Assembly: GCA_954871525.1 (NCBI GenBank)
Contig: OX940864.1
Coordinates: 21,570,001-21,634,000 of the forward strand
DNA length: 64,000 nt
Source: Parietaria judaica
Lineage: Eukaryota; Streptophyta; Magnoliopsida; Rosales; Urticaceae
Direction: 5' to 3'
Both the position numbers and the translations under genes were made by a program. The notes under the pieces were generated by a model. The model was not told the origin of the DNA. It searched no databases and was given only the letters and a program-made list of their open reading frames with translations. Below, piece after piece: positions 343 to 43,603 of the stretch (the stretch's first letter is position 1; every line of letters starts with the position of its first letter).

Positions 343-2276
343 CTTTGCTCGCGCTAGGATGTGAGGGTTTTGTGTAAGGTAGATGATGACCCACAAAGCG
401 CTATGAGCAGAGCTTTCATGGCCGGCCAACATGAAGAGTAGTAGTAAATCCACGATATCTTCGTCCTCTAACTGGGCTCCTTGTTCATCTTCGACCGCCA
501 TTAACAGATCCATCATATCTTTCTTATTCTCACCGCTTTCATTATACCTTATTTTCTCCCTCTTGTTGTCCACCACTTTCTGAAGAATCTTCACTAGCTT
601 CTTTCTTGCCTGTCCATACATTCATATTTTTTATTTTTTATGTGTATATATATATGTATAATGTATCTAGATGCAGACTTAAATATGGTTTATTAGTAAT
701 ATTATAATAGCGATGAAAGTATCTAATATTTTATTTGTTTTATTTTTTTAGGCGAAAGTTTTCCATATCATTATATCATATTATGATAAAAAGTCCCAAA
801 AAAAAAAAAAAAAAAAATCCACCGTGAAAGTCTTTTTTTTTTTCGCGGTCAAAGTTTCCAATCCCAATGTCATCATATTTCTTTCCCATTAGATTCCAAC
901 AATATATTGTTAGCAAAAAATGTTAAAATAAATAAGTGTGACCTGAAGTTTTAATTTGGTAATAGAATAAATATATATTTAGTTGTACAATGTAATATAA
1001 CGTACAAATTAAAAACATCTAGTACATATATTCATTTTAACAATGGAATTTGATGGAATAGAAAATATTATGACATTGGAAACTTTCACGTTAAAAAAAT
1101 TGAGTATTTTTATCGTTATTATACGATGATTTTTAGAAGATTGAAATGTAATATGTAAAACATAAATATTTTTGTCGCTATTTAACCTGAAGGGCTCTGT
1201 GAAAAGCAAAGCCTGGTATGTTAATGACCATAGACCTCAAGCCAGTCAGCAAGTCGGAGTAGAGCTCGCCGACGGCCTCAACGTCGGAGTCGGAGGTGGG
1301 TCCCATGAAAATCGTGTTAATGACCTTGAAGGTGGCCTTGCGAAGCTCGACGACGAGCTCGATGGGGCTGCCGGAGCTGGACCAGAGGCGCAAGTGGTCG
1401 ACGACGATGCGCTCGATGGATGGGATGTACATGGAGAGCGCTTCGTGGCCGTTGATGGGCGAAGTGGTGATGCGGCGGAGGCGCTTGTGCTCGGCGGCAG
1501 AGACGTTGTGGAAGACCCGGCGGCCCATGAGGATGAAGGTAGATTTCGGGTAGCCAATCTTGAAGGTTGCCTCGTCGGTCATCGCTTTCCGGCACATCTC
1601 CGGTAAGCACACGATCACGCTGGGGTTCCCGAAGAGGTGGGTCTTGTAAATTCCGGTCTTGCCATATCTGCCGTTTCCAACAAATTAAATTACGAAATAA
1701 TTTTGGAAAGCTTTGTCTTTTTATTATTTATTATTATCTTTTTATAGTCTATATACTTTTATATTTATCTTTCAATTTTATATATTTGCTTATTATGTAG
1801 CTTTGTTTTTATAATTTTGTCTCCATGTATATCTTCATAATTTATTAATTTATTGTCCATTCTGTACCGATTTTAACTTCGTCTTTACATTTTCGTCACT
1901 ATGTAACTTTTAGACATATAACGATAACTTGACAAAACAAAAGATAAGAATATAAATAATTATCATTTATCAGAGCTGTTCAAGATACTCGAAACTTGAA
2001 AATAAAAGTAAAATAGAAGTGAAAGGTGTAAGATCACCTGGAAGCCATATTGGAAACAAACGAATCGGGATCGGTGGATTTGAAAGCGCGGAGGAACGTG
2101 AGGAGATTGCCGAGAAGAGGCCAACCCATGTCTCCCGGCGGAAGAGGGTGTTTGGAGTTTCTTCCGAAACGAGCAACGTAATACAGCTCATTGAACCTCC
2201 TAAGAAACCCGAACACGAACAACAAACCGCCCAGCAAAACCGACACCGTCGTTACCCACATCGGATCCAACTCCAT
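343..2276 (-). CDS. CYP88-like cytochrome P450, 3' part outside window
   Basis: Three exons are visible: 2276-2038, 1667-1187 and 609-343, all with GT-AG borders and compatible phases (2, 0, 0), giving about 329 residues. The N-terminus has a hydrophobic ER anchor followed by the proline hinge LPPGDMGWPLLGN. The wording of the hinge, the FLRAFKSTDPDSF block and the K-R-L-R-R / NGHEALS blocks of exon 2 are those of the CYP88 family. Exon 3 carries the I-helix oxygen-binding motif AGHESS, so the oxygen-activation site looks intact. The C-terminal exons are beyond the edge, so completeness cannot be judged. Known CYP88 enzymes include ent-kaurenoic acid oxidase (CYP88A, gibberellin pathway) and triterpene oxidases such as licorice CYP88D6 and cucurbit CYP88L. 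A triterpene role is inferred from the neighbouring OSC and the shared promoter. A gibberellin enzyme remains the alternative. Confidence 0.85.
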
Positions 2277-2283
2277 GACAGTA

Positions 2284-2405
2284 CTCTTACTTAATTACTG
2301 GATTCTTAAGGCTGTGATGAAACCTATGAAGGAACCCAACGCGTATTTATAGGTAGTTTACGTTAAAATAGAATATATTAAACTACTATAGTATAGCATT
2401 ATTCG
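2284..2405 (-). promoter_or_regulatory. core promoter and leader of the CYP88-like gene
   Basis: Read on the minus strand there is a TATA box, TATAAATA (2351-2344), 68 bases before the ATG. Downstream is the leader motif CACAGCCTTAAGAATCCAG (2316-2298). Both occur in the same order upstream of the OSC (TATA 8843-8850, leader 8875-8893), with only a few substitutions and one short gap between them. The transcription start is inferred to lie between the TATA box and the leader motif. Confidence 0.8.
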
Positions 2406-2423
2406 AATTTTAGGTCCCACAAT

Positions 2424-2831
2424 TAGTCCCCAAAATGTGAGCAAATTTGGTACCCGACCGGACCAAAATATTTTTGCCGCCCAAAACCCGGTACCGGATT
2501 TATCCGGTTCAGGAAAAGGTCGGACCCGGATAAATCCGGTTCCGGGTTTTTTAAAAAATATTTTTTTATTTATTTAATTCGTTTATTTAATGTGTAGTCC
2601 TTTAATCTGGGCCGTCGGATCGCGAGATCGACGGCCCAGATTATAGCTTTTAATTTTTTTAATTTTTTATTTTTAAAAAGGCCGGAACCGGACCTATCTG
2701 GGTCCGACTTTTTCCGGACCCGGATAGTTCCGGTTCCGACTTTTTCCGAACCCGGATAGTTCCGGGTCCGACTTTTTAAAAAAAAAAAAAGTGGATTCGG
2801 GTTTTAATCCGGATCCACATTTTTGAGACTA
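2424..2831. mobile_element. hAT-like MITE in the CYP88-like promoter
   Basis: A 408-bp GC-richer block is flanked by a perfect 8-bp duplication, CCCACAAT (2416-2423 and 2832-2839). The ends are short imperfect inverted repeats: TAGTCCCCAAAATGTG on the left and TAGTCTCAAAAATGTG at the right end read inwards. The interior is rich in CCGGAT/ATCCGG words and has no coding capacity. An 8-bp duplication with short TIRs fits the hAT superfamily. It splits the promoter homology shared with the OSC. Confidence 0.85.
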
Positions 2832-2859
2832 CCCACAATATTATAGACGTGTCACAAGA

Positions 2860-3200
2860 TTATTTTAATATGTAAATGAGTTGGTGCACCACACTGTTCA
2901 CTTTTGTTTACACTCAGCTGAGCACCGACGTTTATATTGCAAGTAATGTGATAATATGGATTGAATTATTTATATATAAATATTTTAAGAAGTTCTACGC
3001 AACTTCTAACTTCTAATACTTAATAGTAATACAAAATGATTTTGTATTTATTCTATTTATTATTACTAATCATGCAATCTTTAGTCAACGATCTCCAGCT
3101 TCCATTTATTACTATCATCTCGAAAAAACTTTCATGGATTAGTTGGTAATTAATGCAATATCTTTTACATTAAAATAGATTATATTTAATTTTTAGACCT
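2860..3200 (-). promoter_or_regulatory. distal promoter module of the CYP88-like gene, homologous to the OSC promoter
   Basis: On the minus strand this carries TCGTTGACTAAAGATTGCA (3091-3073), containing a W-box core TTGAC. The identical 19-mer lies at 8494-8512 upstream of the OSC. Flanking stretches also align in order: a GCTGGAGA block before the W-box, an AATAAATA...ATCATTTTG block after it, and AACGT(T/C)(A/G)GTGCTC with TGTAAACA closer to the gene. Subtracting the MITE and its duplication, W-box to TATA spacing is about 306 bases here and about 331 in the OSC. Confidence 0.75.
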
Positions 3201-3760
3201 ACAGTCTTATAAATCACATATTATATTACTAGCTTTAGCATTACTTCGATTTTTTTACTGTAGGTATGTGAAATGATTACAAAGACATATGCTATCATTT
3301 GGCTATTAATTAGCTAAAGAAAATATTCGTGAATAAATTATTTTACTAATTTAGAAATTCAAAACAAAAGGGCATAATTATAATTAATAAAATCGTTTAA
3401 ACTTAATACATAAATAATCTGATCTTGAGTTATTTTTTTTACTTATTATCTGGGAAGTGGAAAATTCACACTGATTTTGTGGCTAATAAGAATTCAAAAG
3501 GATTTATTATAGATACACGTCAAGAAAATTATTTTAAAGAAGGGATTTTGGCTTCATTCTCCTTCACCTATCTATAATATAGTACACATTATTATTTAGT
3601 TTACATTTATTAAATAGAATAGAACACCTCCACCTATCTATAACTTAGTGCACATTGTTATTTAGTTTGCATTTATTAGATAGAACACCAACGTTTATAT
3701 TGCCACTCATTTGATTATATAAATTGAATTATTTATATATAAATCTTTTGATAAATTTTA
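3121..3760. repeat. extra copies of promoter-derived segments
   Basis: A stretch near 3687-3746 (caacgtttatattgc ... gaattatttatatataaat) repeats the segment at 2926-2981 of the P450 promoter. Within 3548-3680, two copies of a roughly 80-base unit (cacctatctataa ... tttagtt(t/g)acatttatta) stand in tandem. The block at 3145-3190, read on the minus strand (tattttaatgtaaaagatattgca), matches 8795-8818 just upstream of the OSC TATA box. The promoter DNA here has therefore been locally duplicated more than once. Confidence 0.6.
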
Positions 3761-3795
3761 CTGAGTTTCTATATCATTTGGGATAGGGATCGCAA

Positions 3796-3851
3796 CATAA
3801 GTACCCGAAGTCTTCGGTTTGTCTTGACTTCGAAGACTTCATGTACTTATG
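3796..3851. repeat. 56-nt imperfect inverted repeat (hairpin)
   Basis: The arms are 3796-3816 and 3831-3851. They pair at 19 of 21 positions around a 14-base loop. The arm sequence is CATAAGTAC plus two unpaired bases plus GAAGTCTTCG. It lies about 1.5 kb upstream of the CYP88-like gene in otherwise AT-rich DNA. It could be a small foldback element or a transcribed hairpin. Nothing shows that it is expressed. Confidence 0.6.
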
Positions 3852-3859
3852 CTTAAATT

Positions 3860-6800
3860 ATAATGACTTCGGTTAAATACAAGTCAACTTAGTCCAGATT
3901 TGAATTCACTTAGTGAGATTTTGGACATCCATATTAAAAAAAATGATAATGTTGGGAATTTTCTCCGTGAGAAAGAAATTAAAAACTTTTTCTGTTAATA
4001 TTTAAACATTGCTTCACAAACAAAACTATATTAGCTACCCTCAAAATTTGATAATTTCAAAACATCTCTCACATAATTAAAAAAAATTACCAGCCCCCGT
4101 TCTAATAAAATCCAGACCCTGTAGATGCTCGTAGAACTTTATTATAAGGATTTAACGCTAGTTTTTTTATAATATTAAAATTATGCAAAAAATAAATAAA
4201 AATAAATAATAATACTATGTCAATACTCAATATTATGATTATCGCTGCAAAAATCCTAATACTTTTTTGTCTTGATTAAATATTTTGGTTTAGCCTTTCC
4301 CTTCGACTAAGGTAGGTGAAGTTGCTTTTTCCTTAAAATTCTATATTTTTTAACTACCAATAGTTTAAGTACAATATATTATTAATTAATTCCTTAGAAA
4401 GGTCATAGATTATCTATAAGATAAGCATACGGCCATGCACATATAATACACGAGAAAGAGGTATAGGTGGGACCTAAATGGCTAAGCACGTGATAAATAT
4501 GACTTTTATAAACAACTAATTATCAATGGAACCAATGGCAATTCCAATCAATGAATTTCTATAAATAAAGGGTTATTATGGATAAAAGTACCTAAGTAAT
4601 TTGAAAATGTAGCGATGTAGAGTCAAGTTAAAAAAAATCATGGCAATAATACCAAAGTTTCACTTTTTAGAAAAATTTAAAGAATTCCATCCATATTGAC
4701 GTTAGTTCCGTTAACTTATTTGTCAGATGTGTCATTTTTCAGATTTATCATTTCCCTTTCAAAGCTAAACGCCGACTTCGGAGTTAGCAACGCTAAATTG
4801 AGAAAAAAAATTGCACAACTTTCGTATTTTAGCAACTTTCGAATTCGGAGAATAATTGAACATCGTACTTAAAGGTTTGCTTTATTTTTTGAAGAGAGAA
4901 ATTATACAAACTACCAAATTTATGGTACATCTTACGTAAATGATTGTGCTCACATACTAACACATATTTGTGAAAAATCAATCTTGAGTGCCTGATATAA
5001 ATATAAGGAACATCCAACATATTTGTGAAAAACGAATACCACTAAATGCAATAACTGACTTGTATTTAATTATTATTCCACCCATGTTTTGTGCGAGAGT
5101 AATAATTATGACGTTTTTGGTTATAGTATTTTTTTTCTTTTCGAATTTCTTTTGAGTGACCAATAATATATGTGTATATATATAAACATTAATATATAGA
5201 GTATAATCGCTATAAATTAATAAAGGTTAGATTTGAGAGTTAACTATATAATTAAAATTATTAATTAATTGAGTATTAAAATTAATTATATTATTTTGAG
5301 TCAGGATTGAAATATATTATTTAATCGAAATTTTATTGTAGTTATATTACTTGAGTGTAAAGTCCAAGAATGTATGGAAATCATTGTTCACGTACCATTT
5401 TTTAAAAGTAATGCAAATTTTTCCCAGTAAGAACTGCAAGGTGTTTTTTTTTTTTTTTTTTTTAATAGTATGAAAATTAAATGAAACTAAACAAAAGAGC
5501 GTTTTCCGACACTTTTCACCAAGCGCTCTCAAAACTCTCAATATTGATGATGTTGATCATTTAACGCAAAAATTTGGAACACCACGGAAAATACAACGTG
5601 ATGCCTAAAATAATTTTCAATAATTTTTATAATGTAAAATTTTATTTTTTTTAATTTTTTTTTATAAATAAATGACAACAATCACGTAATAACATTGTAA
5701 CATCTATAAAAATTAAATAGATAAAGTTACTTTAAACAAAATATAAAGTAATTTTTTTTAAAATATTGTACAATAGATTCCCCATCGACAGAAACAGAAA
5801 TATATATCTCGATGACCACGTTTTGAGGCATTTATAGAAAATAATTAACTATTTATTAATTTTGAATGAATTAAAGACAATCAATGAGAAATAACTAAAA
5901 GTGGAAAAATCATAATAATAAAAATAGCTATTATGTTGAAATGCGATCAAACTAATAGAGCGAAACGTGGAATAATAATATGTCGCTATTTGAAACTTCC
6001 TGATAGAGACTAACGTTTTTATTTTTAAACTATTTTCACAAAAAATCATATCATTAACAAAAATTTACCACTAAAATTAAGGATTACAACTCATTAAATT
6101 GCAGTATTTTACCTCAAATAAGATGATAAATTATGTTTTTTTTTTTCATTTTCTTTTAAATAACATGTTTTGTTGATGTTAAGAGTCGATCCTGAATCTT
6201 TCCTAAAGAAAGATCTTGAAATTAAAGCAACAACCAAAGCTTACTACATGCTCAATTTATTACTTGATTGACGGTTAATATTTTATACATAATATCTCGT
6301 TTTTTATTTTTAAACTTTTTTTATTTTTTCAGTTTTTTACGTGCCATTTTTCAAGTGGTGTCCGAGCATACCCTCGCCTATAGGTGAAAATACTTATTAT
6401 CGGCTTAGATAGTGAAAACTCCGGTATTTTTTTTTAATTTTTTTTTTCTCAATATATATCACAATCGTTCTTCGGAAGTGTTGAAGATCACAATGAAGAG
6501 TGTTGAATAAGAATAGACGAACTGGTAAAAATAGTCTAATATATATATATAGTAGGAGCAAATTTAAGTTGTATTTGTACTTGCTTTTTTATTTTTATAT
6601 TTATTTTGAATATTACGTCCTTATAAGCTAATAATAACTTCCTTCTTATTATAATCGGATTGGTGACGTTTTTCATATTTTTTCTATGAGATAAAGGGGC
6701 ACTCCTACTTTGACTAAATTGAACCCATACAGTGCCTACTTTGTTTGACAAACAAAATTATTTATACACAGTTACACTGCATATATGAAAAAGAAACTTG

Positions 6801-7689
6801 TACATATTCACGTCATAAGTACTAATATTCTTCTAAAAAATAACAATAAGTCTCAATTCTCTTTTTTTAGCTGGCCAAAGTACCAAAATCATAATATTAT
6901 ATATAAGATAGGTACTAAAAACCCCGATAAAAAGAAACAAATCTCAAATATGATGTCAAAATTTTAATATTTTGTCCAGCTAAAAAAATAATAATCTAAA
7001 GTTTACTTTTTGAAAGAAAATTAGTACTTGTGCCGAAAATAACCTTAATGTTGTTGATTGAGATCTGAGACCTATTAAGATATCTGTTTCTGTATATATA
7101 TCAGTGCGCGGTGCGCTGGATAAAATATCCAATTAGTAGCTGCTAAAATATTAGATTGTGTTGCACATGTTATTAGAACATGTGCGACACATATATATTC
7201 GTCATCATCATAAATTCAAGCACTAGAGACTCGTTAATTTCTCTTTCCCAGTAGTGAGACTAAAACAATTCAACATGTTTCTTTTTTTGGTGGCCTCTCA
7301 ATTACTATCATATCTTGACAATAATTATCTTGACAATAATTAGGTCCGCACTCGAGACCCGATTGTGATATGAAGTAAATGAGTTTATTAAGTCTTATTC
7401 TTAAGAACACGATTAATATGGTTAAATATTAATATAAAAATATAAGAACGCAATGAGACGATGACAATTCATTTTATGTGTCTGGATCATTGTTTTTTAT
7501 TAAATAAATTGAAAAAATATATTTGTTCTTTTTATAATAATACGATAAGTTAAATGGATATAAACGGGTGATCAACATGAATGACATTATAACACGACTA
7601 ATTAAATATTTTAATCATCAAACACGACTAATAAACAAAATGAGTCTAGCTAAATCTATGTGATATGTACAATTAAATATAACCATGAC
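3860..7689. other. AT-rich intergenic DNA without a recognisable gene
   Basis: Only short chance open frames occur here, none with a recognisable domain. The stretch contains poly-A/T tracts (for example 5443-5463), AT microsatellite patches and a small foldback near 6862-6990 (TTTTTTAGCTGG and its complement). Some blocks look like degraded MITE ends, but no paired ends with target duplications were found. Confidence 0.6.
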
Positions 7690-7697
7690 ACAACATA

Positions 7698-8291
7698 CAG
7701 GGGCGGAGCTAGAACATTAACTAAGAGGGGGCGAAAATTAATAGATCATAAATTTCAAAATAAAACGCTACTATTACACATTGCAGTATAACTATTTCTT
7801 ATGAACTTTCGATTTATGAAACTAGTTCATTATGGTCTCTATACGGTTAAATTCCACATGTTGTTACATTCTCAAAATATTAATATAATTTTTTTCTCCA
7901 ATATTTAAAACTTTGCACGTCTTAAATTATTGATTGGTGGTTTTTATTATTATATAAGTTGTAATCATTTTACTATACCTATTATTAAGTAAAGTACAAA
8001 GATTTTAACAATGTATCTCTAGATTTAGAAGATACATGAAAATAATTGTAATCGTAAAGACACTTGCTAATATTTTTTTTATAGAAAATATGCTGGGAAT
8101 GAGAATTGAACCCAAGACTATAACTTGGCGGAACAACTTTAAGAGTAACAAGATTCCACTACACTGTAGTGACATTCAAGTTACAAATGTTATGTTTATA
8201 TTTATATATAACTTTATAGTAATATGAATAAATTAAAATTAAAATAACAAGCTCGAATCAAGTAGGGGCGGCCGATCCCGCTCCGCCCCTC
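7698..8291. mobile_element. hAT-type MITE upstream of the OSC
   Basis: The left end reads CAGGGGCGGAGC. The right end is its inverse, GCTCCGCCCCTC, with one changed terminal base. The 594-bp element is flanked by ACAACATA (7690-7697) and ACAACATG (8292-8299), an 8-bp duplication with one mismatch. The interior is AT-rich with no convincing coding region. The CAGGGGCGGA terminus and 8-bp duplication are typical of plant hAT MITEs. It lies about 550 bases upstream of the OSC TATA box. Confidence 0.85.
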
Positions 8292-8469
8292 ACAACATGA
8301 ACAAGACAAATAATATGAATTATCACCTCTAATTAATTTTCTATAAGATTTTCTGATCTCTTCAACAAAACTACATCGATTAACAAGCCAGTAATTATAC
8401 TATATATATGTCACTCTAAAATCATGTCATTGAAGTGGTATATGATTGATTATTCTTGTAATAGAATAA

Positions 8470-8895
8470 TCATATCAATTGCAGCTGGAGAAATCGTTGA
8501 CTAAAGATTGCACGAAAGCGCACAGATAATGAGAAATAAAATAAATAAATCATTTTGGAGCAGGGAAACCACAAGGTAGGCTGCGTATTAGAAATTGTCG
8601 AAAACTAATCAAAATACTCAAGTAAAAATAGTTCAATTCAAACACGTGAGTTCCATGTAACGTTAGTGCTCTGGTTAGTAAATGTAAACATAAAATAACA
8701 ATGCGCACGAACTAATTGATGGGTGCAGGGGAATGCAGCCAAAATCCCTTATTTTTAAATAGATTTAGCTAAATGATTGCATATATGTAATATATTTTAA
8801 TGTAAATGATATTGCATGCAGTTAATACCACTCAAAGAGACCTATAAATACGCACTCGGTTTCTTAGGTCTTATCACAGCCTTAAGAATCCAGCA
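8470..8895 (+). promoter_or_regulatory. promoter of the OSC gene, homologous to the CYP88-like promoter
   Basis: It contains the W-box 19-mer TCGTTGACTAAAGATTGCA (8494-8512), a G-box-like ACACGTGA (8642-8649), the TATA box TATAAATA (8843-8850) and the leader motif CACAGCCTTAAGAATCCAG (8875-8893). All but the G-box recur in the same order upstream of the divergent CYP88-like P450. W-boxes bind WRKY factors and G-boxes bind bHLH/bZIP factors. Which factor acts here cannot be told from sequence. Confidence 0.8.
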
Positions 8896-9013
8896 TTAAT
8901 ACACTACACATTCATTTCAAAGTAAGTCTCTCATCATTCTCTAGAAAAAAGAGTATTCACACACACGGCTCTCACAGTCTCACTAATATACTACTTCTAC
9001 ATATAATAAACTG

Positions 9014-9067
<54 letters not shown>

Positions 9068-9246
9068 TGAGTGCTTGTAAATAAAAACACACATGTATGT
9101 TGTACACGTTATGAAGAGCACATTATATGTTATATGCCCATTTTATTGATCCACTCAATAGTGATAATAATTATAGATATATCTGTACATTTAATTTCTG
9201 AAAAATATATGCGATGCATGTCTAGGTCAATATTGTTACGTATACC
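8896..9246 (+). promoter_or_regulatory. OSC 5' leader with (AT)n tract, possible leader intron
   Basis: The TATA box is nearly 400 bases from the ATG, against 68 in the sister promoter. The extra length includes an (AT)n run of about 48 bases (9015-9062). A donor-like AAA|GTAAGT occurs near 8923 and an acceptor-like CTAG near 9223, so the AT tract may lie in a 5'-UTR intron. That is inference and would need transcript evidence. Confidence 0.45.
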
Positions 9247-12200
9247 ATGTGGAGGTTGAAGGTCGGCGAAGGTGGGCCATGGGTGAGCACCACGACCAAT
9301 CACGTCGGTCGGCAGTACTGGGAGTTCGATCCCGAAGCTGGAATGCCGGAGGAGCGCACTCAAGTAGAGCGTATTCACCGAGAATACTCTGAAAAACGGC
9401 ATCGCAACAATCAGAGCGCTGATCTTCTGGCCAGAATGCAAGTACGTAAATTACTTGTCATTGTTAGCTTTTTGTTTTATATACATTTTTTTAATAAAAT
9501 TTAAAGAATCATCAGAAGAATTGTATTAAACTTGTTTGTTTATAGTAGTTTGTATTACAAAGTGTGTAATTATAAATTACTACTGTTGGGATTATGAGTT
9601 ATGACTATTTATCATCATCTTGTGACCTGAAATATTATTCTATAAATTATTTGAAAATGGCAGCTTAGGAAGGAGAACGGGAAGAGAGTGATCCCGGCAG
9701 CGGTGAAGGTGGGCGAGAGGGGCGAGATAACGGCGCAAGCAGTGGGGACGACACTTGAAAGGGCTCTTTCGTACTTCTCTTCCATCCAGTCTGGCAGTGG
9801 CCACTGGCCTTCTCAGCTCAGTGGTGGTCTGTTCTTCATGCCTACAATGGTAATCGATTAATTATATAAATGAATGCTACAATTATTGTTCTTGAAGATA
9901 TATTTTAATAAATTTTGCTCTTTTATTTTTGAATTTATAATATATCTTGAATATTTGTTGATTTACTCATTTTTTTTTTCTTCTTCTTCAGATTATAATG
10001 TCATATATCACGGGCACACTAGGTGTATCTTTTGGACCAGAACTCCGCAAAGAAGTAATTCGATACATTCACAATCACCAGGTATATTACTTACACATAT
10101 GCAAATATAACACCAGTGTATATATATATATATATATATATGATTTTAATATATATATATATGGTTTTGCGTATAGAATGAAGATGGAGGATGGGGTTTG
10201 CACGTGGAGAGTGACAGCACGATGTTCGGAACGGCAGAGAACTACGTAGCGCTGAGGCTGCTGGGAGAGAGCCGGGAAGACAGCGTCGTGGCCAAGGCCA
10301 GAAAGTGGATTCTCGACCGTGGCGGAGCCGTCGGAATTTGCTCCCGGGGGAAGTTTTGGCTCACGGTATATATTTGTTTATTCTTACTTGTTAACTATTT
10401 CTATCTTATATTCTTGCTTTCTGATATGACTACATGCTGATCATGACGCATGGTCAAAAAAATAATAATTAATTAATTAGATAAGGACAGATTATATTCT
10501 TGATCACGCACTCACTCCCATAATTGACTTGTACTAGGATGATAAAATAAATGTTAGGATTCAAATATATTAAATTAAATAAGAGAACGTTCTAGGATAA
10601 TAAAATACCTGTGTTAATTAAATAAATAAGAGAACGTACTAGGATGATAAAATAAATGTGAGAATTCAAATAAAATATATAAATAAGAGAATATGAAATG
10701 GTTTGAAAGTAGGTCTTAATTAAGCTTTTAATTGGAATTACATTTGTGATTAATACAATTATTTGTTGCCGAAAACTAATTTATTAGAATTGAAAAACTG
10801 TCTTTATTTGATAGTTTAGTGCAGTTTCATGTTTGGCAGTATTGTTGATCATATGCGCGGTCATACCTACGATCTCCTTATCCATAGAGCGGAGTTGGTC
10901 CGTTTCGGTTGAGATATTTAAGGAATTCGTTCTCCCTTATCTGCTGGTCAAATATCAGAGTTAAATGAGCTGGATAAATTCGAATTATTGAGAAAATACT
11001 TAGTCAAGGAAAGACTAAGTAAAAAGCCTTAAAATGAGGAAGAAGTGGTTATCTTGTTGAGAGCTTTTGGGGATCTATTTAAACTGATCTAGGGCACTCA
11101 ATTTCGTTCATCCTTTCAGCCATAAAGTCAGAGAAAATCGTTAAGAGCTACAGAGAGCATTCTACGCATTTTCTCACAATTTCTGTGGATCGTTCGTTGG
11201 CGTTTTCTTCCCGATAAGAAGTCTGAAGAGGTCTGAAGAACTTCAGTATCGTCAACGAAGTTGTGCATACTTGCACAGATCGACACTCGCCGGAAGTCGC
11301 CTTACCCGCTTGCCGAGCCGCCGTGTCGTCGTCTTAATCAGCAGGTTACAAGTCTGGTTACATCGCTGGTCGCACTGGTTAGAGTGTATTTTCCAGTTTG
11401 TTGTTCGGTGAACAAATCGATTGTGTAACGTCCATCTTGTAATTATCAATGTTGATTAATCTGGGTGAGGGCCCCGCAGAGTAGATAGGTATCGAACTGC
11501 GTTAATAAAACATCGCGTGTGTCTCTTTATTTTTGCGTGTGTTTGTTTATCGTTATTTTCCGCTTAACCGAAGAACGTGACGTTTCAATTGGTATCAGAG
11601 CTTGTCGCTGCAATATATATTCTTTGATTTCAAAGGCAGCGGAAAGATCTAGGTGTTCTTCGAATCACGATGGGTTCGCGCGAAAATATTGTTCTTATAA
11701 GACCACCGATGTTAGACGGTACAAACTATTCGTATTGGAAAGCTCGAATGACTATCTACATCCAATCGTTTGACACAAAAGCTTGGAGTGTTGTGAAACA
11801 TGGCTGGAGTTCTCCCATGAAGAAAAATACAAAAGGAGAATTTGTTGAAAAACTGCTAAGTGAATGGAATACCGAAGATGAGACCGCATCCCTAGCAAAT
11901 TGTCGTGCCTTAAATGCGATCGTATCTGCGGTCGACGAAGGACAGTTTAGGCTCATATCTACGTGTGCTACTGCCAAACAAGCATGGGAAGCATTGCAAA
12001 ATCTCCATGAAGGAACCTCAGCCGTTCGAACCTCGAAACTCCAAATGCTTGCATCAAAATTTGAGGAACTACGTATGACCGAGGATGAAACCATTGCAGA
12101 CTTCAATGGAAATCTTCGTGAAATCTCAAATCAAGCTTTTCAACTTGGAAAAGTATATTCTAATCTAAAATTGGTTAGAAAAACGCTTCGGTCATTACCA

Positions 12201-15200
12201 GAACGCTTCAGTGCCAAGGTTGCAGCCATCGAAGAGGCCAAGGATATAACCACGTTGAATTTGGATGAACTCATGGGATCTCTTCAAACTTTTGAGATGA
12301 ATATGTCTCAAGCAAAAAGAGAAAAAGGAGTAGCATTCAAAAGTTCTACCAAACGTGATCACATAGACGATGCAACCAGTCTTACCAATGATGTACCTGG
12401 TGATGGTACAAGTAATGTAACCATGGATGATATTTTTCTTCTTACTACAAATTTTGGTAGAATATTGAAGAAATTTAACACTCAGAGACCACCTTTCAAT
12501 GGAGGAGGAAATGGTTCTTCACACAGTAACTCAAGCAGTAAACACAGATCTACTAACAACAATCATGGTCATAATGATGGTGGTACTAAAAATGATAAAG
12601 TCAAAAGAAGTGGAATCAAGTGTCGTGAGTGTGACGGATATGGTCATATACAGTCAGAATGTGCTAACACTATCAAGAAACTAAAGACTAGATCCTACGG
12701 TACTTCTTCCAGTGATAAAGGGTCAGATGAAGAAGATGGCGGAGGAGTTTTTAGCAATTATGTTGCGTTCCCTGCATCACACCACTCTCGTGATCAGAGC
12801 AATTATTCAAGTGATGATTCAGATGAAGATTTTTCTGAAGAAGACTTTCAAACATCATTCAAATCTCTCTTTGAAAAATGGCTATCTTTATGCACCCTGA
12901 GCAAGAACCTTAATTCTGACAAGGAAAAATTGATTGGTGAAAATCAAGCTCTCTCAACAACTATAGAGAAACTGGTGAAGAAAAATCAGACTCTAAATGA
13001 CCAAGCTAAGTCCAAAAAAGAGAAGTTTATTTCTGAAAAACAAGTCTTATCCACGGTTGTAGAAGAATTAAGACAACAGAACAAGGTTCTCACTGACCAA
13101 GTGCTAGAACTGAAAGAGTCTCTTTCAAGAGTGAACTGTCTCGCCGTTGAAAAAGACAAGAAGATAACCTCAATGGAAAACGCTGTTGTGAAGTTCAATT
13201 CTGGAAAATCCAAACTCGATGACATACTTGAACAAGGACGTCAGTCTAGAAATCGTACCGGTCTTGGATTTTCGAAAGGACCAAGATTAGTTAGTGAATG
13301 TAGAAAGAATGAATATGACCGTACAAGCTACAACCGCATTTTCAGAAAAGAGTCAGACGATAAGAATATTACCGAAAGTGAAAGCATAACAACCACCAAA
13401 GGTACCATCAATATTGCTAGCCAAGTAACCAAGAAATGTGAATTATGCAAGTCTATTTTTCACAACGATGCTAGGTGCAAAAATATGTACAAACAATTCT
13501 CTGAAAATATTCAAAAGACATCGCTTCGCAAATATGCAACCAAGACCAAGAAAAGTCGTTCAGTGTGGGTGGCTAAGTCTCTTCTCTTCAAGGTTCCAAA
13601 GTCAAAACTTGCTTGGGTTCCTAAGAACAGTTTATCTTATGGAACAACCATCAACACAGTTCCTCTCATAGATGCAACCGTCAATCCAACGATAACAAGA
13701 TCCACCAACAATGCATCTCCCGCAAAATACAACCTGACAAGTAGCCATGGTAAATGGAGTGATAGCCAACTACAAATATGTGGACACAGTTGCACTTGTT
13801 ACTTCTCCAAAAGATATAATTAGAGACATATTCAATCCTGAAGATGCCACAAAATGGAAGCCTCAGAGGTTTATGCAAGCCTTCCAGAGGCTGATGAATT
13901 CGCACTCAAAAATAGTATCTCGGTTCAAGAGAATCTCTTACCGCTAAGGGTACTAAAGAGCCAAAATAGAATCTTGTGACTCAACCATCAGAGGAGTCTT
14001 TGGCATATTGCTTCGCATAGGGGGAGAACTGTGCAGATTCAGAAGAATTATCCCATAGTCAGGGGGAGCTTCACAAAGTTAGGCTCAGAATTGTACAGAT
14101 TCAGTTATCCAATAGTCAGGGGGAGCATTTCTTCGTTATCACCGAGTCAGGGGGAGCTTCACAAAATCGGTCTCAAAATTGTGCAGATTCAATCTCAGAG
14201 TATCACATAAGGAACATCAGATAGAAAAGGGGAGCATCTCTTCGGGCGTGTACGAGTTGGTCAATGTTCAGAAAGATCAAGCGCTGGTGGTTCGTACCAT
14301 AGAATCTTCTTTGGCACAGGTTCACGCTCTCTCAGACCAGATTACTCTTCTTCAAGAGACAGTTCTTGCCATTCAGCGGGATCTTTTTCCTCACTCCGAC
14401 TAGTTTTTGACATTTTCCGTCAGCAGAGGGGGAGAAAGGTGACAGGGGGAGACATCGACGACAGGGGGAACATTGGTCACTCAATTGGTTTAATCAGAAG
14501 TTCAAGTTTATTTCATGATCGTTTGCTCATCGCTACTTGTCTACGGGTCACCTAATAATCTGCTCAACAAAAATGCCAAAGGGGGAGTTTGAAAAACTGT
14601 CTTTATTTGATAGTTTAGTGCAGTTTCATGTTTGGCAGTATTGTTGATCATATGTGTGGTCATACCTACGATCTCCTTATCCATAGAGCGGAGTTGGTCC
14701 GTTTCGGTTAAGATATTTAAGGAATTCGTTCTCCCTTATCTGCTGGTCAAATATCAGAGTTAAATGAGCTGGATAAATTCGAATTATTGAGAAAATACTT
14801 AGTCAAGGAAAGACTAAGTAAAAAGCCTTAAAATGAGGAAGAAGTGGTTATCTTGTTGAGAGCTTTTGGGGATCTATTTAAACTGATCTAGGGCACTCAA
14901 TTTCGTTCATCCTTTCAGCCATAAAGTCAGAGAAAATCGTTAAGAGCTACAGAGAGCATTCTACGCATTTTCTCACAATTTCTGTGGATCGTTCGTTGGC
15001 GTTTTCTTCCCGATAAGAAGTCTGAAGAGGTCTGAAGAACTTCAGTATCGTCAACGAAGTTGTGCATACTTGCACAGATCGACACTCGCCGGAAGTCGCC
15101 TTACCCGCTTGCCGAGCCGCCGTGTCGTCGTCTTAATCAGCAGGTTACAAGTCTGGTTACATCGCTGGTCGCACTGGTTAGAGTGTATTTTCCAGTTTGT

Positions 15201-18200
15201 TGTTCGGTGAACAAATCGATTGTGTAACGTCCATCTTGTAATTATCAATGTTGATTAATCTGGGTGAGGGCCCCGCAGAGTAGATAGGTATCGAACTGCG
15301 TTAACAAAACATCGCGTGTGTCTTTTTATTTTTGCGTGTGTTTGTTTATCGTTATTTTCCGCTTAACCGAAGAACGTGACGTTTCAAGAATATTACCTAA
15401 TAAGCGTCCAGTCCACGTGTCCATACCTATAATTTGTCCTCACGCAAATTTGGCAGTTAGTCCTCGTGCAATTAACCCTTTTTTTTTTCTTACAGCCCAC
15501 AATTCAATTTATTAGACCCTTAATAGTGAATAAAAATACATTTAGAAAAAAAAAATACATATTTAATGTGGACCATATAAAATAAAGTCAAGAAGATAAC
15601 TTTCTAAATAATAAACTATACTATATTCTTTTAATTACAGTTATTAATAAATTGCCAATTTTAAATATAATTAGGTTCTCGGTGTCTACGAGTGGTCGGG
15701 CTTCAATCCTGTGCCTCCAGAATTTTGCCTTCTTCCAAATTCGCTATTCTTTAATCCAGGTATAGTAACTCTTAATTTCGCTAAAAGTCAAACTTAAAAA
15801 GCTAAGGCCTAAGTATATATAATGCTTGAATACTAACATTAATTTACTATATAATGAACGGTTTAATGCAGGCAAAATGTTGGCATTAGCTCGTACGATT
15901 TACTTGCCTATGTCATACTTATATGGGAAGAGATTTGTAGGACCCATCACTGATTTAGTTCTATCTTTGAGGCAAGAACTCTACATTGAGCCTTATTGCG
16001 AAATAAATTGGAACAAAGCGCGAAATACCATTGCCAAGGTTAGTTACGGTCTCATCAAATCATCTTCAAATTATCTAATCTCAATAAAATAATTCTCGAT
16101 AAGCTAATAATTCTCGATCAAATTATATTTCTGGTGATCATGAATGGGGACAAATAAGGTAAATAAATAAACTTAGATCCTATTATATATCAAAATAACC
16201 TAAATAATAACTTAGTATATATGCTTCATGCTGTAAAATATCATCGAAATGTTTCTGATTTTATATTTGAAATTTATGCTCATTCAATTCCATTTAAAAT
16301 TTTCTAGTTAGGGTACTTACTCAAAAGTCTCGATGCAAAATTATTTTTTTTAATAGAAAATTAATCGTGAAACTGTTATTTGGATTAATATAATATGATA
16401 TTTCAAGCTTATATACAACCATAGAACTATTAATATTTCATTGTTCAATAATTTGTACTAATTATTTAAAATTACACCTCTATAAAATTAATTATTTAAG
16501 ATAATTAAAAAGCGAGGTATATATTTTTCAGGAGGACAACTTTTACCCACACCCTTTGCTGCAAGATATGCTATGGACATGTCTTCACCATGTCGCAGAG
16601 CCCATCCTATCATGTTGGCCTTTTTCAATGCTGAGAGACAAGGCATTGAAGCTTGTCTCTCACCATTTAGACTACGAGGATAAAGCCACCAATTACTTAT
16701 GCTTGGCAAGTGAAGAGAAGGTATAATACTTGTAGATATACATATATAAATAAACAAACGTATATCATTAAATTTTGGAATATGATCCAGATGATGAGCA
16801 TGGTTGCTTGTTGGGCTCAAGATCCAAACTCAGAAGCGTTTAAGCGTCATCTCGCTAGAGTGCCGGATTACGTATGGATTTTAGAAGATGGAGCAAAGTG
16901 TCAGGTTTTTCTCTTCCAACCAATATTGTCTGTATAAAAATTCTATATGTCGATTAATTTGTTCGCCACACCACAACTATGTTCAAGAATGAGATGGTTC
17001 ATACTATTAGACAAACTATATAATGAATAAAACATGCATATCTCACGAAATAAACACGTTTAGATACAAACAAAGAAGCAAATATGTATATGATCCATTC
17101 TTTTAATTCTTATAGTGATGTTGCAATATGCAGGGTAATGGTTCTCAAATATGGGACACAGCTTTTGCGGTTCGAGCAATAATTTCAGCTGGTTTAGATG
17201 AAAAGTATGCTCCAACACTCAGAAAAGCACATGAATTTTTGAAGGCCTCACAGGTATATAACCTAAAATCTATATTGCTAGTTCATTTTAATTTAGAGAA
17301 ACACTAATATTATTAACATATGATGATTAGATACGTGAAGATCCTCCCGGAAACTTCAGACAAATGTATAGACAAAACTGTAAAGGTGGATGGGTCTTCG
17401 GAGATGCTGATCAACAGAGTTGGATCGTCTCTGATTGCACTGCAGAAACATTAAAGGTATATATTACTAAATGGTCGCCCAAATTTCTTTTCTTTTAGTT
17501 AGTCACTTGATAACAACGTTATAAAATATATTTTTACACTAAATTTTCATATTTACCCGTAAATATGTTTATTATATATATATATATATTTCAATTTTTT
17601 TATGGTGAAATCTATTATTAATTTGCCCCCTGAAAAGTTTATGGACCCGTCTCGAATTTACGATTCCTGGTCCGCCACAGCTAAAAAAAATATAAACTTT
17701 TTTGCAGGCTGTACTCTTGCTTTCACAAGTATCACCTGCCCTAGTAGGAGAAAAAATGGACTCTCAGTGCTTTTATGATGCAGTGAATGTCTTGCTCCCA
17801 TATCAGGTTAGATTTTTTTTTTATCTAATTAATTCAATATATATGTGGGTATTAATTTTTCTTCTTCAACGTGATCACTTGATTAACAAATAAAATAATT
17901 CAGTGACATGTAGTATGTACTATTCTTATATTAGCAAAATATTTATTTATGTGCAAACTTAAAAAAAAAATACTCAGTTTAGCAAAAATACTCATGTTAA
18001 GCAAAAAAAAAATACTCAGTGACATGAAGATTATTTTTGTCCTAAATTATCAAAATAGGTATTTTTTAAAATAGTTTGACTTGATTTCTTAAAAAAAAAA
18101 GTTTGACTTGATGAGTATTTATTAAAAACATTTGGATAACAATTAGTATTTCCCTAATTCACCCTTCTTTTAATTTCATTAATCATATGTGATTAACAGA

Positions 18201-21188
18201 GCAGTAATGGAGGTTTTAGTGCTTGGGAACCCCGTAAAGCATTTAGTTGGTTGGAGGTAACTCTCTCTCTTGCCTGGTCAAAGCTCCTTAATAAAGTGCT
18301 TACATAAATAAGATTACAAACAAACCAAAACCCGGAATCGGGAAGTTGACTTTTTTTTTCGTCCATATTCCAAAAAATTGGGATTATTTTGGTAACGGTT
18401 CCGATTTTGGTAACGGTTCCCGATTCAAAAATTTCCCGGGGTTCCGGTAACGGTTTCGATTCAAATTTCCCGGTTCCGATTTGGGTTACGGTTCCATTTC
18501 TAAAATTTCCCGGTTCTAAAAGTGTTTGACTTATAAATGACATGTATTTTTGAAAAATTAGTAATTATAAATTACACGTAGTATAAAAAACGACAATAAA
18601 AATATATATTACACTAAAAACGACATATTAAAAACTTAGAAATGACATGTAGTTTAAAATCGGAACCGGTACCAAAAACAGGGAAATATTTTTTAGGTAC
18701 CGGTTCCGGTTCCCGGTTCTGAAAATCGGAAACCGGGAAGTACCGGTTCCCGGTTTTAAGCTAAATTTCCCAGATTTTTTAAAAAATCGGTCCGGGACCG
18801 GGACAAAACCGGGAAACGGTTACAAAATTTTCACCCCTAATTATATATACAGAAATTATTAAACATAAAGTGAACAAGAGACAAAAAATTTAAATTTAAA
18901 TTATGAGCAGGTCCAAAATATATGGACTTAAACATTGTCATCTCCGAATAATTATCTAAGAAAATTAATAACAACTATTAGAATATTAGTTATTTAATAA
19001 TGTAAGACAATGTTACATGATTTGTTCTTGGCCTCAAAGTAGATCTTAATAAGTACTATCTATTGTATATATCATATAGATATAAATTGCATGGCTAATT
19101 AATTAATTAGCTGATAATCCTATAAGCTATACCTAACAGTAAATCTAACTATTTATTCGTCCCTCCACTTTTTTTTTTTCAGAAACTCAATCCAATAGAG
19201 TTCCTTCAAGATGCCCTGATTGAGAGAGAGTAAGTTTTTGTTTTTTTTAATCATGGTACTCTTTTATGCAAAGAACTAATTGTTGGTATATATAATATAT
19301 ATATATAGATATAGTGTATCATATAAATATATATATTTATATATAGCTTAATTTATTAAAATTAATTAATAAATTATTATCTCAGGTATGTAGAATGCAC
19401 GTCCTCGGTCATTCAGGGTCTCGTAGCCTTCAAGAAGTTATATCCCCATTATCGACAAAAAGAAATAAATAGTTGTGTATCAAAAGGACTGTCTTATATT
19501 GAGAATACACAAAATCCCGACGGCTCATGGTATATACATATATATATATATTCAAAGATCCAGCATTCTTATATAAGTTAAATATGTCACAAATATATAT
19601 ATATATATATACACATATGTATTTTATATTTACTATGTATAGTTTATAATTGTCGGTAGGTACGGTCGTTGGGGAATTTGCTATACGTACGGTACATGGT
19701 TTGCATTAGAGGCACTCGGGGTTTGTGGTATAAATTACAGCAACAGTCTCGGTGTGAGAAAAGCTTGCCAATTTCTACTCTCAAAGCAACTCCCAGATGG
19801 TGGTTGGGGTGAAAGTTACCTTTCATGCCGAAATGAGGTACATTTTCTACATAAATGAAACATCTTTTTACCATGTTTGATAATAATAATCTTATAGAAA
19901 GACAATATTATAGATGGGTAGAGAAAATAGGAGAAAATCAGAACAAATGGACCATAGATGGGCTTGTTTGTCCTGCCTTTATATCAGGCACTCCGGAACA
20001 CGGGTTGCTTGTCCCCTTGAGATCAATATGACGGATTATAAACCCCGCCTGCTTTGCTAATGATGATGATGCACACCCGTCCCGAGTTATTTTTATTTTA
20101 TATGTTTTTACTTTGATTTTCATTTTAAAATAAGTAAAATAATGGATGGGGGAACAAAGTTGTCTGCTTCTTTTCGGTCCCCCGTTGAACGAGCAAACAC
20201 GAGTACGGGTAGTGGGCGGAGGAAAATTGCCCCTACCTGTATGGTCTTGATTTAAGGAAATTCGTAGCTGGGATGTCACAAGAAAAGTGAAATATAGAAG
20301 AGTCAAAACATATTTTTATTTTTATTATATTCCTGTATATTCTATTATGATTAACGATGTTTAAGTGCAGGTTTACACTAATCTAGAAGGCAACATTTCA
20401 AATTTGGTTCAAACTTCATGGGCATTGTTAGGTCTCATCGCTGCAGGCCAGGTGATTACATATCATCCTTAAACTAACCATATTTAATCTAGATATCCAA
20501 AGAATTAGGCATTAAATAGCTATTTAAACTTCAAAATATTTTGAACAATATCTTTTGATCTATAACTTTGTTGAATATAATAAATTTAACTCTTTGTATC
20601 ACTTTGGCTTTTATACTCTTTTTTTTTCACTCTATGAACTTATTAATCCACATTAGTTCACCCTCAAAACTTATTACGGTATCATATACCTTTGGAACAT
20701 ATCACTAAATCATTTTTCTGTAAAAATCAAACTCATAATATTATATATATATATATACTTATTGTTGACTTCTTGATCAATATAAATCAGGCTAAATTTG
20801 ATCCAAAGCCAATACAAAAGGGGATAAGGTTATTGATCAACGCACAAATGGAAGATGGAGATTTCCCTCAACAGGTATAAATTCATAAGTATATATATAT
20901 ATATACATTCAGCTAATGTTTCATATTTAACTAATTTTTTTTCTTCTAAAGATTACATATACTAATTTGCTGTACCTGTATTTTTTTTTTTGTCTTTAGA
21001 TTTATAATATATATATATATATATATATCATTGCATTGGATTAATATATAATAATGATTTTGTTACTGATTAAGCAGGGGATTAACGGAGCATTTATGAA
21101 GAACGGTGCATTAAACTACTCTGCTTATCGTAACATTTTTACCATATGGGCTTTGGGGGAATATCGCCGATGTGTGTTATCCAAATAA
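9247..21188 (+). CDS. oxidosqualene cyclase, lupeol-synthase-like, 18 exons, intact
   Basis: Exons: 9247-9441, 9664-9849, 9992-10081, 10177-10365, 15675-15759, 15872-16038, 16532-16720, 16791-16904, 17134-17253, 17331-17456, 17708-17806, 18200-18256, 19183-19229, 19386-19529, 19660-19837, 20371-20451, 20791-20874, 21078-21188. All borders are GT-AG and phases join into 753 residues without a stop, the family's usual length. It starts [10 protein letters not shown], as plant OSCs do. QW motifs (QNPDGSW, QLPDGGW, QMEDGDF) and the proton-donating DCTAE motif (Asp480) are present. Many blocks ([34 protein letters not shown]) match the eudicot lupeol-synthase branch. The specificity motif MLCYCR/MWCYCR is replaced by MLALAR (residues 251-256). 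It should cyclise 2,3-oxidosqualene on the ER membrane. The product is not predictable. Intron 4 (5.3 kb) holds a copia-type element. Confidence 0.92.
10366..10790. other. OSC intron 4, part before the retrotransposon
   Basis: AT-rich intron sequence with three short near-repeats of a gagaacgt-type word at about 10582-10692. No exon or RNA gene is seen. The last five bases, AGAAT, are the left target duplication of the inserted element. Confidence 0.6.
10791..11587 (+). repeat. 5' LTR of the gag-only element
   Basis: 797 bp, TGAAAAACTG at the start and GACGTTTCA at the end. It is nearly identical to 14590-15386. Differences include gcgc/gtgt in the first 70 bases and single changes near positions 130, 720 and 735 of the LTR. 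Confidence 0.95.
11590..11601 (+). promoter_or_regulatory. primer-binding site of the gag-only element
   Basis: TGGTATCAGAGC lies two bases after the 5' LTR and is complementary to the 3' end of plant initiator methionine tRNA, the usual primer of Ty1-copia reverse transcription. Confidence 0.9.
11670..13823 (+). CDS. retrotransposon Gag polyprotein, UBN2 type, 717 aa
   Basis: The frame is uninterrupted. The first 200 or so residues have the plant copia Gag signature ([13 protein letters not shown] near the start, then [13 protein letters not shown] and L-R-S-L-P blocks), as in the UBN2/DUF4219 families. A CCHC zinc knuckle CX2CX4HX4C starts at residue 318. A long acidic and coiled-coil stretch runs from about residue 400 to 520 with heptad-like leucines. 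A second CX2CX4HX4C knuckle starts at residue 590. Gag packages the element RNA. Protease and later pol domains do not follow in any frame. The ATG is the first after the primer-binding site and fits the usual Gag start. The open frame agrees with recent activity. Confidence 0.9.
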   Translation: MGSRENIVLIRPPMLDGTNYSYWKARMTIYIQSFDTKAWSVVKHGWSSPMKKNTKGEFVEKLLSEWNTEDETASLANCRALNAIVSAVDEGQFRLISTCATAKQAWEALQNLHEGTSAVRTSKLQMLASKFEELRMTEDETIADFNGNLREISNQAFQLGKVYSNLKLVRKTLRSLPERFSAKVAAIEEAKDITTLNLDELMGSLQTFEMNMSQAKREKGVAFKSSTKRDHIDDATSLTNDVPGDGTSNVTMDDIFLLTTNFGRILKKFNTQRPPFNGGGNGSSHSNSSSKHRSTNNNHGHNDGGTKNDKVKRSGIKCRECDGYGHIQSECANTIKKLKTRSYGTSSSDKGSDEEDGGGVFSNYVAFPASHHSRDQSNYSSDDSDEDFSEEDFQTSFKSLFEKWLSLCTLSKNLNSDKEKLIGENQALSTTIEKLVKKNQTLNDQAKSKKEKFISEKQVLSTVVEELRQQNKVLTDQVLELKESLSRVNCLAVEKDKKITSMENAVVKFNSGKSKLDDILEQGRQSRNRTGLGFSKGPRLVSECRKNEYDRTSYNRIFRKESDDKNITESESITTTKGTINIASQVTKKCELCKSIFHNDARCKNMYKQFSENIQKTSLRKYATKTKKSRSVWVAKSLLFKVPKSKLAWVPKNSLSYGTTINTVPLIDATVNPTITRSTNNASPAKYNLTSSHGKWSDSQLQICGHSCTCYFSKRYN
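13824..14589 (+). repeat. non-coding tail of the gag-only element with repeated GGGGGAG boxes
   Basis: Between gag and the 3' LTR there is no pol. About nine purine boxes of the form (A)GGGGGAG or GGGGA recur at 20-90 base spacing, several preceded by CAGATTCA or followed by CTTCACAAA, so part of the segment is a degenerate tandem array. The last box, next to the LTR, is the functional polypurine tract. A 74-codon open frame (14179-14403) is present but has no recognised domain. Confidence 0.75.
14590..15386 (+). repeat. 3' LTR of the gag-only element
   Basis: 797 bp, starting immediately after the polypurine tract and ending at the right target duplication AGAAT. It is nearly identical to the 5' LTR. 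Confidence 0.95.
18258..18840. repeat. GC-rich degenerate repeat in OSC intron 12
   Basis: Words such as CCCGGTTCCGG and its complement recur from about 18330 to 18835. The right end reads inwards as TAGGGGTGAAAATTTTG, a hAT-like terminus. A matching left terminus and target duplication were not found, so the element is truncated or its left border has drifted. It does not touch the exon 12 or exon 13 splice sites. Confidence 0.5.
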
Positions 21189-41219: not shown

Positions 41220-41309
41220 GTGGTTGCTAGGATAGCCTAGTGGTAATTCCACACTACCTCCAAAGTGGAGGTCGTGGGTTCGATCCCTGCCTTAAAAAAA
41301 AAAAAAAAA
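41220..41309 (+). mobile_element. short tRNA-derived SINE in intron 7 of the OSC pseudogene
   Basis: A perfect RNA polymerase III box A TAGCCTAGTGG (41233-41243) and box B GGTTCGATCCC (41277-41287) are 33 bases apart and followed by an A tail of about 17. The whole is flanked by a perfect 14-base duplication ATCCATATTACTAT (41206-41219, 41310-41323). This is the structure of a SINE integrated by L1-type target-primed retrotransposition. No folded cloverleaf with a paired acceptor stem was seen, so it is not a tRNA gene. Confidence 0.88.
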
Positions 41310-43135: not shown

Positions 43136-43603
43136 GGGTTAATGACGGCAAAAATACCCAAAGTTTGGTCAAAGAACCCCTCGTGTACTCAAAGTGTAAA
43201 AGTGGTGGGAAAAATACCCAAAGTCACATTTGAGGAATTGACCACTTAATTCTCGTAATGCCGTTAACTTACTCGTTAACCCTGGCCACATGGACAAATT
43301 TTCTTGCTAAGTATAATCATTAGAGGTTTAATTAGTTGTATTAAATAGTATTAGTTAGGGGTTTAATTTGTTGTTTTGTCGTAAACAAGACTTATTTGGG
43401 CTCATCCATTTGGCAAAAATTGTTATGTCAACAACCAACGTTTGCCCGCGTGGCCAGAGTTAACGGGTAAGTTAACGGCGTTACGAGAATGGAGTGGTCA
43501 ACTCCCCAAATGCGACTATGAGTATTTTTACCACCACTTTTAAACTTTGGGTACACGAGGGGTTCTTTGACCAAATTTTAGGTATTTTTGCCGTCATTAA
43601 CCC
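43136..43603. mobile_element. Mutator-like MITE in intron 4 of the OSC pseudogene
   Basis: Long terminal inverted repeats of about 90 bases begin GGGTTAATGACGGCAAAAAT. The flanks are a perfect 10-bp duplication TAAAAAACAA (43126-43135, 43604-43613). Long TIRs with a 9-10 bp duplication indicate the Mutator superfamily. 468 bp, non-coding. Confidence 0.88.

Follow-up and report, generated by a model that had tools for sequence, protein, structure and literature searches.

Homologous promoters of a CYP88-type P450 gene and an oxidosqualene cyclase gene in Parietaria judaica, probably of CYP88 origin

How the genes of a plant gene cluster come to be expressed together is an open question, for which the usual explanations are a common regulator, chromatin and slow promoter evolution (PMC9298681, PMC8418127; these papers and PMC12514444 are cited throughout from excerpts). 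Here we describe a stretch of 64,000 nucleotides from Parietaria judaica, positions 21570001-21634000 of contig C6 and hereafter called the window, in which a CYP88-type cytochrome P450 gene and an oxidosqualene cyclase (OSC) gene carry homologous promoters that face apart. From the sequence we suggest a shorter route to co-expression, in which the cyclase would have adopted a P450 type of promoter.

Several described systems resemble this locus in part. The EAS-EAH pairs of Capsicum are controlled via a bidirectional promoter (PMC9298681). Like the capsidiol EAS-EAH pairs of Capsicum and Nicotiana, the locus places a terpene synthase next to a P450 of the same pathway; it differs from them in having two homologous promoters with about 5.4 kb between their W-box-bearing modules. 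The start codons of the P450 and OSC genes are about 7 kb apart and each gene has its own promoter, the two being inverted relative to each other, hence the arrangement is not a bidirectional promoter. In the cucurbitacin clusters, where an OSC is found with CYP88L2 and others, bHLH factors bind the promoters of nine genes (PMC8418127). The combination of an OSC with a CYP88 P450 of one pathway is thus shared, whereas cucurbitacin control is described there via a common factor, the excerpt mentioning no homology between the promoters of different genes, and the present locus belongs to Urticaceae. Ancient pairs of an OSC and a P450 of the CYP85 clan have further been proposed as cluster seeds, and some eudicot terpene clusters are associated with miniature inverted-repeat transposable elements (MITEs) (PMC9298681). 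Our locus is like these in having an OSC-P450 pair and a MITE in one promoter, and unlike them in that the MITE occurs only in the C6 copy of the cluster and did not supply the shared modules. Finally, in the recruitment model enzymes join existing regulons through promoter evolution (PMC9298681); the locus fits this model and would add to it a concrete capture with a putative junction. In the open-access literature no description of a cyclase that has a promoter of a P450 family was found, most subscription papers being outside the scope of that search. As set out below, the cluster exists in three copies of two ages, and a lost W-box, a MITE insertion and a module duplication among them are natural test variants; a leaf RNA run of P. 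judaica is listed as ERR11641095 (PMC12514444).

Homology of the two promoters

Sequence comparison confirmed that the OSC promoter (8474-8893) and the inverted upstream region of the P450 gene are homologous. The preliminary description of this locus had reported two identical 19-mers before both genes, one with a W-box and one in the leader, and the exact word positions agree with it on both strands (Table 1). The TATA word CCTATAAATACGC is likewise present before both genes. BLAST aligned five blocks of the two regions at 71 to 89% identity and 48 to 67 bits, while the best match among 1000 dinucleotide-shuffled versions of the OSC promoter reached 32.8 bits; the summed matches of at least 30 bits came to 291 bits as against no more than 32.8 in the shuffles. 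By nhmmer, P450 positions 3108-2875, which hold W and B' together, matched the OSC promoter with an E-value of 7e-9. When both exact words were masked, matches of 67, 58, 48, 34 and 30 bits persisted, of which the last two are no better, or barely better, than the best shuffle. The earlier proposal that the promoters are homologous independently of the coding regions is thereby supported, and it withstands the refuting condition set with it, namely a similarity outside the 19-mers no better than that of shuffled AT-rich sequence.

We named the shared blocks W (which holds the W-box), B, M and core (TATA box and leader). The OSC promoter has the order W-B-M-core, once, and the P450 promoter the order B-B-M-W-B'-M'-core, its distal B copies overlapping. 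The same block order and orientation before both genes, as first described, therefore holds for the proximal part of the P450 promoter and not for the whole of it. The blocks named at that time were also not the full extent of the homology, as the strongest OSC matches fall in the distal P450 copy at 3526-3759, outside them. Internal matches (2920-2998 against 3683-3761, 82%; 3561-3619 against 3627-3685, 88%) indicate a partial tandem duplication of the module unit within the P450 promoter, which had been missed. The MITE reported earlier within the P450 promoter is present, with target duplications at both ends; it lies between B' and the P450 core, and is absent from the copies on contigs C5 and C10. 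From the 8-bp length of the duplication we take it to be hAT-like. It should also be noted that the word at 7959-7981, with 21 of its 23 nt identical, resembles the P450 promoter close to module M (E-value 0.002), and may be left over from one more module copy upstream of the OSC gene.

Table 1. Positions in the window of the promoter modules, the MITE, the putative junction and the two genes
Feature	Position	Strand	Basis
CYP88-type P450 gene, exons 1-3	343-2276	-	tblastn with spliced C5 protein
P450 core promoter (TATA 2341-2353) and leader (19-mer 2298-2316)	2280-2365	-	84% over 57 nt to OSC core (2354-2298 against 8840-8893, 62 bits)
M' remnant, proximal copy of module M	2357-2382	-	weak internal match to distal M (88% over 26 nt, E 0.005)
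MITE, 408 bp	2424-2831		comparison with the C5 and C10 copies; flanked by the 8-bp target duplication CCCACAAT (2416-2423, 2832-2839)
P450 module B', proximal copy, without TAAATGYA	2880-2998	-	nhmmer; 82% to distal copy 3683-3761
P450 module W (W-box 19-mer 3073-3091)	3032-3109	-	76%, 56 bits to OSC 8474-8557
P450 module M	3153-3188	-	89% over 36 nt to OSC 8782-8817, 48 bits
P450 module B, distal copy 2, L1-box-like TAAATGTA at 3602-3609	3526-3613	-	78%, 67 bits to OSC 8675-8766
P450 module B, distal copy 1, L1-box-like TAAATGCA at 3668-3675	3627-3759	-	71%, 58 bits to OSC 8601-8729
OSC module W (W-box 19-mer 8494-8512)	8474-8557	+	BLAST and word position
OSC module B, L1-box-like TAAATGTA at 8679-8686	8601-8766	+	BLAST, alignment and motif position
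OSC module M	8782-8817	+	BLAST
OSC core promoter (TATA 8841-8853) and CYP88-type leader (19-mer 8875-8893)	8829-8906	+	alignment to CYP88 gene C10:30101658
Putative fusion junction, CYP88-type leader to OSC-type 5' untranslated region	8906-8916	+	alignment ends, modest scores
Putative intron of the OSC 5' untranslated region, borders by eye	8922-9225	+	donor region against OSC paralogs
OSC coding exons, lupeol-synthase-like	9247-21182	+	tblastn

We searched the P. judaica genome (538,666,778 bases in 87 contigs) with these sequences. The leader 19-mer occurs exactly at five places, before both genes on C5 and C6 and before the P450 gene on C10, and an 18-mer taken from the W-box word occurs four times, before both genes on C5 and C6 and neither on C10; the reversed patterns used as controls gave no match. 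In the DNA search, with a tool that skips very common words, the OSC promoter returned 10 pieces and the C5 P450 promoter 13, all at three loci, namely the C6 pair and paralogous pairs on C5 and C10, each with both promoters. As far as the word and DNA searches can see, the shared promoter is thus not a dispersed repeat. The upstream regions of a second OSC gene on C5 and C10 scored at noise level (18-27) against the cluster promoters.

The plastid matK (474 residues) is 94% identical to that of Parietaria floridana. A cucurbit origin, suggested by the CYP88-OSC clusters of that family, was rejected on this ground and because neither the P450 nor the OSC protein has a cucurbit sequence among its best 120 homologs. 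C5, C6 and C10 very probably correspond to chromosomes 4, 5 and 9. In the aligned pieces the identity of C6 is mostly 89-97% with C5 and 74-91% with C10, and the number of synonymous substitutions per site (Ks) is 0.03 for the C5/C6 pair, against about 0.12 for comparisons with C10 (356 and 571 codons). For the same codons the ratio of nonsynonymous to synonymous substitution is 0.04-0.31 in all copy pairs, and therefore the P450 and OSC genes are being kept under purifying selection. The cluster of window positions 1-43917, including a second P450 and the second OSC, is also present in inverted orientation on C5 (C5:8370001-8430000, L006-L011), and by this likeness the C5 and C6 clusters are products of a recent duplication between chromosomes. 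The C5 and C10 loci look like a homoeologous pair, because several other P450 matches also fall as pairs on C5 and C10 and 83.4% of BUSCO genes are duplicated in the assembly (PMC12514444), and the C6 copy looks like a later inter-chromosome duplication. Since each cluster copy has both promoters, the sharing of the promoter predates both duplications.

Direction of the capture and the fusion junction

To read the direction we compared the OSC core with the upstream regions of CYP88 and OSC paralogs. A scan for CYP88 exon 1 covered 17 paralog loci, 14 of which gave 15 rows from 14 genes (two rows being one gene); L046, L059 and L060 gave no exon 1 match and were dropped, and further CYP88 genes exist beyond the 14 read. 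The targets were 180 nt for CYP88 genes and 600 nt for OSC genes.

The 93-nt core of the C6 OSC aligned to the CYP88 genes C10:30101658 (z 17.9), C5:8272355 (13.6) and C82 (13.2), and in 9 of the 15 rows its score was reached by at most 5 of 500 shuffles; for the C10 OSC core this held in 13 of the 15. Over 77 nt the OSC core is 76.6% identical to the upstream region of C10:30101658. Against the five OSC paralogs compared, on the other hand, z ranged from -1.8 to 1.4 and every row was reached by at least 58 of 500 shuffles. The CYP88 paralogs gave a top score of 31 against OSC paralogs and second OSCs (98 pairs, mean 22), and of 65 against the OSCs of the three cluster copies (42 pairs with a mean of 30, no fewer than 12 of them above 31). 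In comparisons of CYP88 paralogs with each other, a score of 31 is exceeded by 15 of 85 non-recent pairs, hence the core has been kept in only part of the family.

We consider it probable that the promoter passed from the CYP88 family to the OSC gene. The closest match of the OSC core overall is to the cluster P450s (65-76). The flank of the TATA box in the C6 OSC, however, scored 60, 48 and 48 against C10:30101658, C82 and C5:8272355, and that of the C10 OSC 45, 38 and 37; as the C6 OSC flank is nearer to this group than the flanks of the cluster P450s are, the donor may be another CYP88 copy. The simplest account is an ancestral CYP88 promoter that would be better preserved in the OSC than in the P450, and capture from another CYP88 copy may be taken as the alternative to it.

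The 77-nt CYP88 match runs through the leader and ends at ATACACTA (8906). Similarity to OSC paralogs begins at about 8909 (L066) or 8916 (L063) and continues through the splice donor of the 5' untranslated region (5'UTR), with scores of 27-29 to two of the five paralogs that were reached by 1-4 of 500 shuffles. These alignment ends give modest support to a junction within the first OSC exon, in the 5'UTR, at about 8906-8916. Between the OSC leader and the ATG no CYP88 coding remnant was found by tblastn with the CYP88 protein at E-values up to 0.01.

Several results weigh against such a capture. The OSC sample is small, with five upstream regions out of many OSC matches. For the C6 OSC core 6 of the 15 CYP88 rows were reached by at least 7 of 500 shuffles, the CYP88 gene C5:8092071 shows no core match, and the TATA box, which is common to most upstream regions, raises the scores slightly. 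The TATA flanks of the cluster P450s score 22-45 against the C10:30101658 group, below the C6 OSC. At the junction, three of the five OSC paralogs have no donor-region match, part of the matching word is the general donor consensus, and two of four CYP88 controls scored 25 and 23 with the C6 query (reached by 11 and 20 of 500 shuffles). On the acceptor side of the 5'UTR intron no clear OSC match was seen.

Proposed mechanism and alternatives

With a probability of about 0.8 we suggest that a captured promoter of the CYP88 family has replaced the original promoter of the OSC gene and now drives the gene. A unit of about 450 bp from the P450 side, with W, B, M, TATA box and leader, would have been placed in inverted orientation before the OSC gene and fused inside its first 5'UTR exon, which would have left the first intron and the coding region in place. 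The P450 promoter would have gained its partial tandem second unit before or after this event, and most likely the capture preceded the copying of the cluster. As the same modules stand before both genes, expression in the same cells would be expected, so that skeleton and oxidation would be made together; co-expression of the two genes is a prediction from their promoters.

The two cluster promoters alone give no direction, and as the OSC has a simple single unit and the P450 a duplicated one, copying of an OSC promoter to the P450 has to be weighed. We regard this as quite unlikely, as the core is also present upstream of other CYP88 genes, on several contigs, and absent upstream of the five OSC paralogs. 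A transposable element or dispersed repeat might instead have supplied both promoters independently, and the window does contain transposon-like open reading frames (with a Transposase_32 domain) besides the MITE of the P450 promoter. Yet in 538.7 Mb neither promoter as query led to any locus besides the three of the cluster, within what the tool can see, and the exact words are confined to the same loci; we hold this source to be very improbable. Hardly credible at all is similarity without common descent, by convergence or selection under a common regulator. Short words such as the TATA box and TAAATGYA could arise in that way, but the alignments extend over 36-135 nt including the presumed leader, and they exceed the shuffle maximum of 33 bits with three blocks unchanged when the exact words are masked.

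A more serious objection, though we still think it unlikely, is that the homology is real but a relic, with other elements driving expression and the modules not causing co-expression. In its favour the C10 P450 promoter has GCTGACT where the W-box stands elsewhere, TGTAAACA is disrupted in the C5 OSC copy, and in the C6 P450 the MITE separates the modules from the TATA box. The modules are also only modestly more conserved than their flanks: between C5 and C10 module-bearing bins are mostly 88-98% identical and flanking bins 80-94%, and the OSC bin with the edge of module W only 68%. Against it, the TATA box and leader are retained with single changes in all six cluster promoters, and the coding regions are under purifying selection. 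The emphasis of the preliminary description on the W-box and WRKY factors is not supported by the comparison with C10, and WRKY control via the W-box was set aside as the main explanation since the P450 copy on C10 is without it.

Further, we speculate, though we consider it unlikely, that a head-to-head CYP88 pair lost one coding region, that the cyclase moved behind the orphaned CYP88 promoter, and that the shared TAAATGYA module places both enzymes in cells of the epidermis or hairs. If true, the cyclase would have been under pathway control from its first day. Head-to-head CYP88 pairs 1.1-1.7 kb apart are seen at C9:5587817(-)/5588965(+) and C21:22917531(-)/22919225(+), with OSC genes within about 60-75 kb.

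Candidate elements and the genes of the locus

All six cluster promoters contain at least one L1-box-like TAAATGYA. In the best-kept part of module B, compared over nine copies (OSC, D1 and D2), TAAATGYA is invariant except at its C/T place and AAATAA is invariant, while the three proximal B' copies are without TAAATGYA. Elsewhere the motif was seen in none of the five OSC paralogs, in 1 of the 15 CYP88 rows and in both second-OSC upstream regions. It should be noted that 0.1-0.5 occurrences are expected per promoter, that the cluster copies are homologous and not independent, and that the CYP88 paralogs were read over 532-700 nt whereas the P450 boxes lie beyond 900 nt. TAAATGYA has the form of the L1 box, to which epidermal HD-ZIP IV factors bind, and we offer it, as a lead only, as the first candidate acting element, which would give epidermal or hair expression.

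The P450 protein of the C5 copy matches Pfam p450 (PF00067, E 1e-71) and holds FGFGGRLCPG, in accordance with the P450 heme-binding motif FxxGxRxCxG. Its closest homologs, among the best 120, are 63-64% identical; many of the 120 are named beta-amyrin 11-oxidase-like, ent-kaurenoic acid oxidase or CYP88A154-like, and others hypothetical. Judged by these nearest named relatives the minus-strand gene is a P450 of CYP88 type, and it carries no formal CYP name. The other exons of this gene were placed by tblastn at C6:21562210-21563363, outside the window on its left side and beyond about 7 kb. About 6.9 kb in a P450 intron (C6:21563433-21570314, also left of the window) are absent from the C5 copy.

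The OSC protein of C5 scores 722 bits against TIGR01787 (cut-off 323), and also matches PF13243 and PF13249; its best full-length homologs are 66-67% identical. The translation contains SDCTAE, DCTAE being the catalytic motif of oxidosqualene cyclases. At the product-determining MLCYCR/MWCYCR site of these enzymes the exon at 15862-16038 carries MLALAR, as does the C5 copy. Among the 104 OSC homologs having the site, 85 read MLCYCR, two MWCYCR and none MLALAR, the nearest being MIALAR in an OSC of Morus notabilis (P0238) and ILCLAR in P0197. The product may thus be unusual, though MLALAR does not allow it to be predicted; membership of the family is unaffected.

The second P450 lies at 36078-37831 and the second OSC at 39019-43917. 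With at least two non-homologous genes of pathway type adjacent (CYP88, OSC, second P450, second OSC), the locus is by its gene content a gene cluster. Among the matches listed the second OSC of the C6 copy has no exon 1 match, whereas C5:8365485 and C10:30083009 have one, and the gene may be truncated on C6. One intron of the first OSC gene holds about 4.6 kb of inserted sequence (10790-15387), which shows as a gap in the C6/C5 alignment and is missing in C5; within this insertion lies an open reading frame of 717 residues (11670-13823) that is retroelement-like by eye.

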